Shown: piece after piece, positions 43,603-46,697 of the stretch
Position numbering within the stretch: position 1 is the stretch's first letter
Layout of the letters: each line of letters starts with the position of its first letter
Assembly (NCBI GenBank): GCA_905479015.1
Contig: CAJQKV010000010.1
Location: 1-46,725, forward strand
Source: an uncultured Cyclobacteriaceae bacterium
GTDB lineage: Bacteria; Bacteroidota; Bacteroidia; Cytophagales; Cyclobacteriaceae
DNA: 46,725 bases
Direction: 5' to 3'
Program-made: the position numbers and the translations under genes
Notes under the pieces: model-generated
What the model was told of the DNA's origin: nothing
Seen by the model: the letters and a program-made list of their open reading frames with translations, nothing else
The model's database searches: none

Positions 43603-44171
43603 GTTCAAAAGAGGAATTAAGAAAGCATATTTTAATGTATCGAAAGATGCTCGATGCTCAGGTGTATATCGAGCGCAATCAGCAGATTCAAAACCTTTGC
43701 TTAGGGTTGATGGAAAATCTTAATATTCAATGTTTTCACACCTATCTCGCCATAGGCAAAAATAAAGAACCAGAGACTCAAACCATCATTCAAGCTTCTT
43801 GGTCCTGCGGACGTCAGGTCTTGATATCCAAAACAGATTTTCAAAATAGGAGCATGTCTCATCATACTTATGAGTCGACCGATAAAATCCAAGTCAATCG
43901 CTATGGTATTCCAGAACCGTTGCATCAGGCTTCTGCTGCTCTAGATGATTTACAAGCGATTCTGGTGCCCTTGTTAGTTGTGGATAAGAAAGGGAATAGG
44001 ATTGGCTACGGAAAAGGCTATTATGACGAATTATTGAGTGAAATCAGCCATCTAAAGGTTCAAAAGATAGGATTATGCCTGAGTGGCCCAGTTGATTTAA
44101 TTCCTTATGTCGAGGCGCATGACGTTGCGTTAGATTATTGTATTACACCCCATAAAGTATATCGATTTTGA
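43590..44171 (+). CDS. 5-formyltetrahydrofolate cyclo-ligase
   Basis: The enzyme converts 5-formyl-THF to 5,10-methenyl-THF with ATP. The 193-residue protein starts SSKEELRKHILMYRKML, as the family does, and carries KIQVNRYGIPEP and the signature GYGKGYYDELL. The start is probably TTG at 43590, inside the end of bshC (13-bp overlap), because the first ATG (43635) would remove the conserved KEELRK helix. The stop overlaps the ypdA TTG in TTGA. It is therefore part of the bshC-ypdA message. Confidence 0.9.
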   Translation: MGGISSKEELRKHILMYRKMLDAQVYIERNQQIQNLCLGLMENLNIQCFHTYLAIGKNKEPETQTIIQASWSCGRQVLISKTDFQNRSMSHHTYESTDKIQVNRYGIPEPLHQASAALDDLQAILVPLLVVDKKGNRIGYGKGYYDELLSEISHLKVQKIGLCLSGPVDLIPYVEAHDVALDYCITPHKVYRF

Positions 44172-45127
44172 AAGTAGATTGTTTGATTATTGGAGCGGGC
44201 CCGATTGGCCTTGCTTGTGCCATAGCCGCTAAAAAGGCAGGGTTGAGTAACTTGATTGTAGATCGGGGGACTTTGGTTAATTCAATCTATCATTATCCGG
44301 CAAACATGACCTTCTTCTCTACTTCAGATAGATTAGAAATAGGGGAAGTCCCCTTTATTTCAAACAGTCCCAAACCTACGAGATCCGAAGCCTTAGAATA
44401 CTATAGAAGGGTAACACTTGCTTGGGATTTAAAGATCAATTTGTATGAAGAAATCGTCAGTGTCGTTAAGGAAGATCAACTTTTTGATGTAAAGACGACA
44501 AAAACCACGCATCAAGCAACTTCAATTATTGTGGCAACGGGCTTTTACGATTTGCCATTTTTGTTAAATATTCCTGGCGAATCCCTTTCTAAAGTCAGAC
44601 ATTATTATCAGGAGGCACATCCTTATTTTGGTATGAATGTAGCGGTTATCGGATCTGCTAATTCTGCAGTAGACGCTGCCTTAGATACCTACAGGAAAGG
44701 GGCAAAAAAGGTAACGATGATTATTCGCGAAGCTGAAATCGGATCCAATGTGAAGTATTGGGCTCGGCCTGATATTATAAATAGAATAGAGGAAGGAGCC
44801 ATAAAAGCCCATTTTGAATCAACGATTACCGAGATCCGACAGGATGAGATTGACATTAAGACACGCGAGGATAAGATTACTCTTGTCAATGATTTTGTTC
44901 TTGCGATGACAGGCTATCAGCCAGATTTTAATTTTTTAACTTCTATGGGTGTAAGGATAGGAACAGATGTCAATCAAACGCCTTTTCATAATTCTGAAAC
45001 TATGGAAACCAATGTTCCAGGAATTTTTCTTGCTGGGGTTATTTGTGGAGGCCTAAAAACGAATAAATGGTTTATTGAGAATTCTCGTGAGCATGCTGAA
45101 TTAATTATTAAAAAATTAATTTCTTGA
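44168..45127 (+). CDS. ypdA: YpdA-type bacillithiol disulfide reductase
   Basis: The 319-residue flavoprotein has IIGAGPIGLACA (7-18) for FAD, VAVIGSANSAVDAALD for NADPH, and AGVICGGLKTNKWFIENSRE near the end. These are typical of YpdA, which reduces bacillithiol disulfide. The start is TTG at 44168, overlapping the previous stop by 4 bp. It gives MKVDCLIIGAGP, matching family N-termini, while no ATG does. Together with bshC it makes bacillithiol use likely in this organism. Confidence 0.88.
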   Translation: MKVDCLIIGAGPIGLACAIAAKKAGLSNLIVDRGTLVNSIYHYPANMTFFSTSDRLEIGEVPFISNSPKPTRSEALEYYRRVTLAWDLKINLYEEIVSVVKEDQLFDVKTTKTTHQATSIIVATGFYDLPFLLNIPGESLSKVRHYYQEAHPYFGMNVAVIGSANSAVDAALDTYRKGAKKVTMIIREAEIGSNVKYWARPDIINRIEEGAIKAHFESTITEIRQDEIDIKTREDKITLVNDFVLAMTGYQPDFNFLTSMGVRIGTDVNQTPFHNSETMETNVPGIFLAGVICGGLKTNKWFIENSREHAELIIKKLIS

Positions 45128-45218
45128 TTGCCTTAATCCTAGAAGGGATCCCTAAATGCGATTTTTTAGTAAGAGGTTAATGAATGGTATTAAGTAACTG
45201 ATATTATTATTTTCGGAG

Positions 45219-45369
45219 TTCATATCAAGAAATAAGTATTTGATTACAGCGGATTTGAAAGAGAAATATTGAAGAGCCATCTTAGCAACATGGTTTTGGA
45301 GATGTTTCTCCAGTGGTTGGTTGTTTTAAAGGCATTCTGTGGTGGGATGCCTTTTTTTTGCCTAAGATT
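45219..45369 (+). ncRNA. Putative structured small RNA, repeat copy 1
   Basis: This 151-nt element is nearly identical to the copy at 45463-45615. From 5' to 3' it holds a weak hairpin ATCAA/TTGAT (near 45224-45244), hairpin GCCAT/ATGGT (45276-45280 with 45290-45294) and hairpin TTGGAGA/TCTCCAG (45296-45302 with 45307-45313). It ends in a terminator, AAAGGCAT/ATGCCTTT (45328-45335 with 45347-45354) followed by eight T. No open frame of note. It starts 91 bp after ypdA on the same strand. It could instead be a mobile miniature repeat, but no terminal inverted repeats are seen. Confidence 0.55.
45328..45359 (+). terminator. Intrinsic terminator of repeat copy 1
   Basis: An 8-bp stem (AAAGGCAT/ATGCCTTT) with an 11-nt loop and a run of eight T. 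It could also terminate the ypdA message. Confidence 0.8.
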
Positions 45370-45462
45370 CAAGAGGCACCCTAGCTATAAAAGGTAGTAG
45401 ACTTCCACTGGGCACCGCCGTATTTTGAGGGGTCTTATTTCCTTATCACAGTTTTTCCGGAT

Positions 45463-45615
45463 TTCATATCAAGAAATAAGTATTTGATTACAGCGGATTT
45501 GAAAGATAAATATTGAAGGACCATCTTAGCAATATGGTTTTGGAGATCCTTCTCCAATGGTTGGTTGTTTTAAAGGCATTCTGTGGTGAGGATGCCTTTA
45601 TTTTTTGACTAAGAT
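45463..45615 (+). ncRNA. Putative structured small RNA, repeat copy 2
   Basis: This copy is 153 nt. It differs from copy 1 at only about a dozen positions. In the hairpins GCCAT/ATGGT becomes ACCAT/ATGGT (45520-45524 with 45534-45538), and TCTCCAG becomes TCTCCAA opposite TTGGAGA (45540-45546 with 45551-45557). The loop TGTT becomes TCCT. The terminator stem is unchanged (45572-45579 with 45592-45599) while its loop gains a base. The pattern favours a conserved RNA structure. Conservation with copy 3 also extends about 40 bp upstream of the element. Confidence 0.55.
45572..45606 (+). terminator. Intrinsic terminator of repeat copy 2
   Basis: The same 8-bp stem as in copy 1, with a 12-nt loop, followed by TTTATTTTTT. 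Confidence 0.75.
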
Positions 45616-45704
45616 TTAGATTTGTTTCCGTTGCTTAAATACCTTTTTATGTTTAATAAACTAAGCTTGATCTTAGAGAAGAGCAGATGCCCGTGGTTTA
45701 AATA

Positions 45705-45731
45705 AAAAACCCTCCAATGGGAGGGTTTTTT
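45705..45731 (-). terminator. GC-rich intrinsic terminator after the exported-protein gene
   Basis: AAAAACCCTCC/GGAGGGTTTTT forms a strong stem with a 4-nt loop and A/T runs on both sides, so it may act on both strands. Confidence 0.85.
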
Positions 45732-45760
45732 ATCATCAATAGAATTAAACTATTGATGAT
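45732..45760 (-). terminator. Second hairpin at the stop codon
   Basis: A perfect 11-bp inverted repeat (ATCATCAATAG/CTATTGATGAT, 7-nt loop) starts at the stop codon of the minus-strand gene and sits directly before the GC-rich terminator. It may protect the 3' end of the message. Confidence 0.55.
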
Positions 45761-46449
45761 TATTCATTGGTGTAGGCAGCAAGAACATTAAGAGTATAAT
45801 TTGAGGGAGAAACTGCGCCCCCATTATTTTTCGTCCATTCGGCCCACTCTTTGACATATTTTTCTTCTAAAACTTTTTGGTCCATTAGATCACTAAAATC
45901 GGCGGCACCAATGGCTACCCAATGCGAAATATTTTCGCCTCCTCCTATGTCATAGGTTCCAAATGCAACAGGTCTGTCTCCTCTTGTTTGTGAGGTTTGT
46001 TTCACTAATTTGTCATGAGCGACCTTAAATGCCGCAGGATTATCCAATTTTAGGTCATATATTTGGACATAAGGATAATCACTCCATGAGCCACCTTCAG
46101 CACTGAGAAACCGACCCGCATATGAGGTCCCCCATTCTTCAATAAAATGGTTAAGTTTTTCAATGAATAATTCCCATTCAAATTCTTGCGTATCTCCCTC
46201 TACTCTTCCAATTTTACCTACTTCTCCAAAAAGAATCACTCTGTGTGAGTATGGATTGTCTCCATGAGCAATTCTTTCAATTTGAATACCACCGGATTTA
46301 AATTTAGCATCACCCCATTGCTCTTCAGCGAGCTTGGCAATGGCTTCTTCCATCCCTGGCTTGGCATTGAAATTCCAAAGTTGAAAAGTATTTTGAGCAA
46401 ATAAAGTGTTGGCTGAAAATACAGCTATTAAGATTAATAATTTTTTCAT
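45760..46449 (-). CDS. Exported protein of unknown function, two ABM-like halves
   Basis: I start at the ATG at 46449 instead of 46473, because it gives a typical signal peptide (MKKLLILIAVFSANTLFAQ). The mature protein is about 210 residues. Two halves look related. The first opens FQLWNFNAKPGMEEAIAKLA and closes SHRVILFGEVGKI; the second opens YVQIYDLKLDNPAAFKVAHD and closes SHWVAIGAADFSDL. Each resembles a ferredoxin-like (antibiotic biosynthesis monooxygenase or NIPSNAP type) domain, but this is inference. No catalytic residues are recognised. It is a single-gene unit ending in tandem hairpins and flanked on both sides by copies of the putative small RNA repeat. Confidence 0.65.
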   Translation of the reverse strand: MKKLLILIAVFSANTLFAQNTFQLWNFNAKPGMEEAIAKLAEEQWGDAKFKSGGIQIERIAHGDNPYSHRVILFGEVGKIGRVEGDTQEFEWELFIEKLNHFIEEWGTSYAGRFLSAEGGSWSDYPYVQIYDLKLDNPAAFKVAHDKLVKQTSQTRGDRPVAFGTYDIGGGENISHWVAIGAADFSDLMDQKVLEEKYVKEWAEWTKNNGGAVSPSNYTLNVLAAYTNE

Positions 46450-46697
46450 TTTAAATCGATTTATAGTTAGCAAAATTTAAAAATAGATATATTTTTAAAG
46501 AGATACAAATTTCAGAACTTGGTGAAATGAACGGCGGATCATATAAATTAGGGAGCTTTTATATATTCAATTGACATGTATCTATATCAAGGATGCTATA
46601 AAAGAGCAGTTGTTATAGCTATAAATGATGCCATACTTTCGCTCATCATCTTGATGTATTGAGAGGCCTCATTTCCTTTATCCTAGTTTTTCCTATT

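Follow-up and report, generated by a model that had tools for sequence, protein, structure and literature searches.

The window analysed here is a stretch of 46,725 nt from an uncultured Cyclobacteriaceae bacterium (GCA_905479015.1, contig CAJQKV010000010.1); its genome and contig are denoted below as G000 and C10. Close to the 3' end of the window, the stop codon of a ypdA-like gene (45127) is separated from a reverse-strand gene at 45760 by a spacer of 632 nt, in which no ORF of at least 50 aa is listed. The spacer carries two tandem copies of an element, at 45210-45359 and 45454-45603, which were returned by the repeat search as one ungapped direct-repeat pair of 150 nt with 89% identity; a gapped alignment extends the similarity past the T-run, to about 45369 and 45615. 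The original prediction had described tandem, near-identical elements in a gene-free spacer of about 630 bp, which is what the locus contains, but its count of two was incomplete. A third copy is cut by the contig end, and its 3' half opens contig C37 of the same genome. Since ypdA on one side and the TonB receptor with the next gene on the other flank the array on one contig in four related genomes (G003, G004, G006, and G008), contigs C10 and C37 almost certainly adjoin. The features and their coordinates are listed in Table 1.

Table 1. Coordinates of the element copies and surrounding features in the window.
Feature	Position	Strand	Basis
ypdA-like gene (putative bacillithiol disulfide reductase), upstream of the array	44168..45127	+	TIGR04018, 477 bits (cut-off 340)
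Copy 1, 5' block (putative promoter/regulatory DNA, AAGAAATAAGTATTTGATTACAGCGGATTTGAAAGA)	45200..45272	+	R2 match 45205-45267; similar core-free block in G003 (twice), G004, and G001
Copy 1, RNA core: hairpin (about 45295-45313), linker TGGTTGGTTGTT, terminator	45273..45360	+	R1 match 45277-45357, 106 bits (copy 1 belongs to the model's own alignment); fold z -3.0
Copy 1, intrinsic terminator with TGTGGTG loop and T-run	45328..45360	+	Alignment A2 and pair counts
Copy 2, 5' block	45439..45516	+	R2 match 45450-45511
Copy 2, RNA core with terminator	45517..45607	+	R1 match 45521-45602, 106 bits; fold z -3.5
Hairpin of 14 perfect bp flanked by A/T, resembling a bidirectional terminator; placed between copy 2 and the reverse-strand gene	45702..45733	.	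Inverted repeat
Gene for a 237-aa predicted secreted protein, between copies 2 and 3	45760..46473	-	ORF; "secreted" read from the N-terminus
Copy 3, 5' block cut by the contig end	46684..46725	+	3' half at G000:C37:1-50

The unit of ~150 nt consists of two parts, a 5' block of ~60-70 nt and a core formed by the last ~85 nt (45273-45360 in copy 1). In the core, a TGGAGA/TCTCC hairpin is joined by a mostly conserved linker to an intrinsic terminator, whose loop is TGTGGTG. Copies 1 and 2 each end in a AAAGGCAT/ATGCCTTT stem of 8 bp (10 bp including further G-U and G-C pairs) followed by a T-run, as had been noted from the sequence beforehand. They differ at three positions in the first 63 nt and at nine in the 84-nt core, three of the nine being inserted bases. 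On inspection, the core differences fell within loops, the T-tail, or the leader that precedes the hairpin, or were G-U/A-U exchanges; no hairpin or terminator pair is broken, and the earlier remark that the differences between copies spare the stems holds.

An alignment of ten copies (A2) revealed two robust helices, the TGGAGA/TCTCC hairpin and the terminator AAAGGCATTC/GGATGCCTTT, which together make up the RNAalifold consensus. The linker between them is altered in several rows, and the terminator loop is invariant (10/10 rows). Both-side changes were observed at one pair in each of three named helices, one of which, a 5' hairpin, is not predicted by RNAalifold; as compensatory changes, one hairpin pair alternates among AU, CG, and UA and one terminator pair between UA and CG. 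With shuffles that ignore the relatedness of the rows, the covariation score of A2 was 0.131 versus 0.084 (0/500 shuffles as high), and three pairs were changed on both sides versus 0.9 in shuffles (5/500 as many); the pair types were not unusual (77/500). Sliding the helix partners reduced the paired cells from 95.5% to 58% or less. In a 14-row alignment, composed of model hits fitted to the structure, no shuffle reached the score, but the count of pairs with both-side changes was unremarkable (88/500). The covariation in the hairpin and terminator, derived from few independent changes, is suggestive and falls short of proof.

Against dinucleotide shuffles, the folds of the whole units were modest (z -2.8 and -2.1 for copies 1 and 2), and those of the cores reached -3.0 and -3.5, respectively. 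Six more cores from relatives ranged from -1.5 to -5.0, three of them lying between -1.5 and -1.7, so that three of the eight cores fold hardly better than shuffled sequence. The 5' hairpin GCCAT/ATGGT, counted among the conserved stems in the original prediction, was recovered in the minimum-energy fold only with an RNA start further upstream (in the 116-nt form, not in the short forms) and is absent from the RNAalifold consensus. A longer fold of copy 1 was discarded: it is not conserved among six paralogues, 77% of the cells of its middle helix are paired, and its covariation is at the shuffle level.

According to the covariance model of the core (R1), this part of the element is present in 6 of the 10 genomes of the genus (G000, G003, G004, G006, G007, and G008), with one to four matches each. 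No core was found at E 0.01 in G001, G002, G005, and G009, three of which are 67-81% complete. The prediction of a novel small RNA family is supported in part, by the hairpin and terminator, by this distribution, and by the few compensatory changes, but the 150 nt do not form one structured RNA. In G003, G004, G006, and G008, and across two contigs in G000, the array is situated between ypdA and the TonB/DUF4249 genes, the Pfam assignment of the latter genes having been run on G000 only. In G005, a diverged single relative with a poor terminator occupies the ypdA-TonB place (score 60 versus a maximum of 26 in 200 shuffles). The corresponding junction of G007 measures ~100 nt and is element-free; in this genome, two copies flank an FG-GAP gene on contig C88, and a third match is weak (22 bits). 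Two of the G007 copies are not followed by any co-directional gene, a setting consistent with a stand-alone RNA. A copy on G007 contig C35 (87.9 kb) appears at both contig ends within an identical inverted stretch of at least 3 kb; such a stretch could be an assembly artefact or an inverted terminal repeat, and the duplicate of this copy is probably an assembly effect.

Copies lacking the terminator had been named in advance as evidence against the family. The terminator stem is kept in 12 of the 14 model hits, and two (the middle copy of G006 and that of G008) have lost the 5' terminator arm and the linker through a short deletion; one hit, on C37, is cut by the contig end. A further remnant in G008 (22 bits) is also devoid of the 5' terminator arm. 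Not all copies can be functional in the same way.

Such decay is among the points in favour of a rival reading, a spreading, non-autonomous repeat of the recombinogenic or MITE-like type whose terminator is there by chance and whose structure is incidental. Copy number varies, copies are located elsewhere in G007 yet its ypdA-TonB junction is free of them, and copies flank genes (45760-46473 in G000 and its counterpart in G006; the FG-GAP gene in G007). However, the list of inverted repeats contains no pair joining both ends of the unit, copy number is low, and no match was detected in viral contigs (exact core pattern) or in phages and plasmids (blastn). In addition, conservation is concentrated in the hairpin, linker, and terminator, where some changes preserve pairing. 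We regard the repeat explanation as rather unlikely. An attC-like site was also considered and set aside, as the attC core did not fit by eye; a coding reading of the 5' block was likewise rejected.

The gene between copies 2 and 3 encodes a protein without Pfam or NCBIfam matches. Counting the window's own genome, 9 of the 10 genomes of the genus have a match to it, and several of these matches contain internal stops. The gene is situated between copies in G000 and G006 (94% identical), and homologues occur in G003 (83%, on another contig) and in G001 and G002 (78-79%); the element itself is not detected by R1 in G001 or G002 and is confined to the array in G003. The DNA between copies may have been gained and lost by recombination. 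On the other side of the array, a small ORF (L031:117-218, from G000:C37) for a 33-aa hydrophobic peptide without a Pfam match lies between the last copy and the TonB gene, and similar ORFs are seen by eye in G004 and G006.

The 5' block and the core also occur apart. On contig C6 of G003, a 74-nt stretch aligns to copy 1 with a score of 76 versus a maximum of 31 in 200 shuffles; it is located upstream of a 210-aa gene, after which come a TonB-receptor gene (Plug domain) and a gene that looks DUF4249-like by eye. Near-copies of the 5' block were found on G003 contig C9 and in G004. The model of the 5' block (R2) gave 55-62 bits at these three places, all of which are in its own alignment, and R1 detected no core at any of them. 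G001 (contig C60) has the block at the corresponding place, outside the R2 alignment (E 2e-6). The core, in turn, follows unrelated upstream sequence in the last copies of G004 and G006, in the G007 copies, and in the G008 remnant. The 5' block is separable from the core, and its core-free occurrence ahead of a second TonB-receptor operon makes it more likely to be promoter or other regulatory DNA. The conserved ~45 nt before this operon (AAATAAGTAGTTGATTTCAGCGTATTTGAATGAGAAA in G003 C6) resemble the 5' block of the element and are possibly a shared regulator site. A scan with the Bacteroidota promoter consensus TTTG-N17-23-TAnnTTTG returned nothing above shuffles. Contigs C6 and C9 of G003 carry near-identical copies of the second TonB operon with its neighbours, and in the C9 copy the first gene of the operon has, by eye, an additional relative that is partly degenerate. 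R2 also matches a repeated sequence 16 times in a distant 1.1-Mb genome, G080 (E 0.007-0.04), probably an unrelated AT-rich repeat.

Comparison of the window with Rfam (4227 families) gave no match at the gathering score, in agreement with the earlier remark that no described RNA class was recognised in the element. The best sub-threshold match inside a copy was Chlorobi-RRM (18.7 of 45 bits). The matches inside copies at relaxed E-values were weak and far below the gathering scores, and they were rejected; most of the strongest relaxed matches fall on the separate hairpin 45702-45733. A search of open-licence papers, a scope that leaves most subscription journals outside, found no small-RNA literature on Cyclobacteriaceae or Cytophagales, nor did any description of the element come to light there.

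The nearest known system appears to be FopS of Bacteroides thetaiotaomicron, reported as 14 paralogous sRNAs that repress SusC-like transporters, with a single-stranded 5' seed stretch followed by a terminator and with bound RbpB; the authors state that their model was deposited in Rfam (PMC11697453). Both are multicopy Bacteroidota families with intrinsic terminators and a link to outer-membrane transporters of the SusC (TonB-dependent) type, whereas the window element has an extra hairpin, conserved unpaired parts before and inside the terminator, and arrayed copies (PMC11697453). The element may be considered comparable to FopS in style rather than a demonstrated relative. No RRM_1 protein (PF00076, the RbpB-type partner) was detected in the genome of the window (0/1; the control was positive in Bacteroides ihuae), nor was a match to Hfq (control positive elsewhere), so a partner of the FopS/RbpB type is unsupported. 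Paralogous sRNAs that are adjacent or multicopy include the Hfq-dependent OmrA/B of enterobacteria and Qrr of Vibrio; the likeness of the element to these systems is one of arrangement, and their sequences are presumably unrelated to its own. Rfp18 of Flavobacterium psychrophilum, a structured Bacteroidota sRNA reported to be conserved in its genus, resembles the element by description in these two respects (PMC9723704).

On the whole of this evidence, the element probably represents a multicopy family of trans-acting, base-pairing sRNAs. Each copy would be a small transcription unit on the plus strand, in which a block of ~60-70 nt with the promoter and a control site precedes the RNA. The putative RNA would be ~85-115 nt long, noncoding, and terminated at the intrinsic terminator. 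Its linker UGGUUGGUUGUU and its terminator loop UGUGGUG are conserved, probably accessible, and placed beside a short hairpin; pairing in trans with mRNAs through the linker or the loop seems the most likely mode of action by analogy with paralogous sRNAs elsewhere, and the number of copies may set the dosage. As an sRNA family seen in one genus, the element is credible, modestly supported in structure, new in sequence as far as searched, and ordinary in kind.

A role in cis as a terminator or attenuator was weighed as well: transcription from ypdA would stop at copy 1, and the last copy would hold back read-through towards the small ORF and the TonB operon. This reading is favoured by the distance of about 75-80 nt from the ypdA stop to the start of copy 1 and by the co-directional position of the last copy ahead of TonB/DUF4249 in five genomes. 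However, the last terminator is about 460 nt away from the TonB start, neither of two G007 copies serves as the leader of a gene that follows it, and a plain terminator has no need of a conserved linker and loop sequence; we strongly doubt the cis explanation. A short protein-coding or pseudogene fragment is barely credible: the 48-nt similarity (80%) to a stretch of G082 (E 6.5e-4, in frame by eye) is one of several borderline matches in 98 genomes, no ORF of at least 50 aa lies in the spacer, and the cores carry indels between copies.

For the trans-acting sRNA reading, outer-membrane uptake genes would be the first candidates for the regulon, because the element precedes a TonB-receptor/DUF4249 operon and its 5' block resembles the site before a second such operon; a signal of pairing with them was not detected. 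In duplex energy calculations for G000 only, the cores of copies 1 and 2 ranked the TonB start 8th and 15th and the DUF4249 start 13th and 12th among 42 start regions (those of the window and of the first 12 kb of one other contig). The longer form of copy 1 ranked the TonB start 2nd, a score without a shuffle control. For the starts of the second operon in G003 and G004, duplex energies did not stand out from shuffles, of which 10 to 73 in 100 were as low. The best partners of the linker and of the loop were other genes of the window, and over the window start regions, 3/200 and 7/200 shuffled seeds were equal to them. A more specific scheme, quite unlikely in our estimation, would have the promoter block shared with the second TonB/DUF4249 operon, so that expression of an uptake operon co-induces an sRNA array tuning others without an Hfq or RRM chaperone, the array growing and shrinking by recombination and exchanging promoter blocks among its copies. 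If expressed, the copies would constitute a compact natural set of paralogous sRNAs, beside nutrient-uptake genes, whose promoter and RNA modules can be separated, in a genome with no detected Hfq or RRM_1 protein.

The covariance-model search proposed in the original prediction was successful within the genus and weak beyond it. R1 gave weak matches in 6 of 295 genomes of the family (E 1e-5 to 0.0045), and in the sample of the order, only the window's own genome was matched (1/291); in both searches, 15 candidates per genome were scored under stricter filters, and weak relatives may be missed. The matches in G265, G232, G035, and G115 resemble, by eye, ordinary gene-end hairpins with loops other than TGTGGTG. 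Those in G328 and G323, both of genus g88, carry the exact TGTGGTG loop. This motif was rejected as a generic terminator loop of the order, a rejection that holds for the exact motif CCTGTGGTGGG: one of 32 sites in 30 fetched loci had at least six flanking pairs, and it was without a T-run. The same pattern was found at 110 sites in 42 of 59 genomes versus 73 sites for a reversed control pattern.

The sequence matched in G328 and G323 is conserved in 17 of 19 g88 genomes, with one match each (73-100% identical). At all 12 loci opened, it lies just downstream of the same gene, assigned by Pfam on one of them to ACR_tran (RND transporter). The stretch of ~116 nt (e.g., L139:1501-1616) contains a hairpin with both-side changes, a nearly invariant unpaired TCATAGTTAAGGTTGATTTGG, and a terminator with a variable loop; its fold (z -3.7 and -3.6) consists of a hairpin, a linker, and the terminator, and 10 of its 29 consensus pairs are changed on both sides. 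No Rfam family was found for it in the 4 of 12 loci searched. Like the core in the window, the g88 RNA has a hairpin, a linker containing GGTTGATTT, and a terminator, which in 2 of 12 aligned loci carries the TGTGGTG loop, the other 10 loops being different. Aligned locally to copy 1, it reaches a score of 36, against peaks of 33 and 30 among 300 shuffles, and this similarity rests on the linker and terminator. Unlike the multicopy element, it has a single match per genome downstream of one gene, and its TCATAGTTAAGGTTGATTTGG is unpaired and nearly invariant. R1 gave 32 and 31 bits at the G328 and G323 loci and at most 16 bits or nothing at the other 10. With the reciprocal g88 model (R3), the window copies reached 13 bits and other places in the window 13-16 bits. 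We lean towards a separate RNA of similar layout rather than a homologue of the window core, and the g88 stretch itself makes a good candidate sRNA of the 3'-end-derived type.
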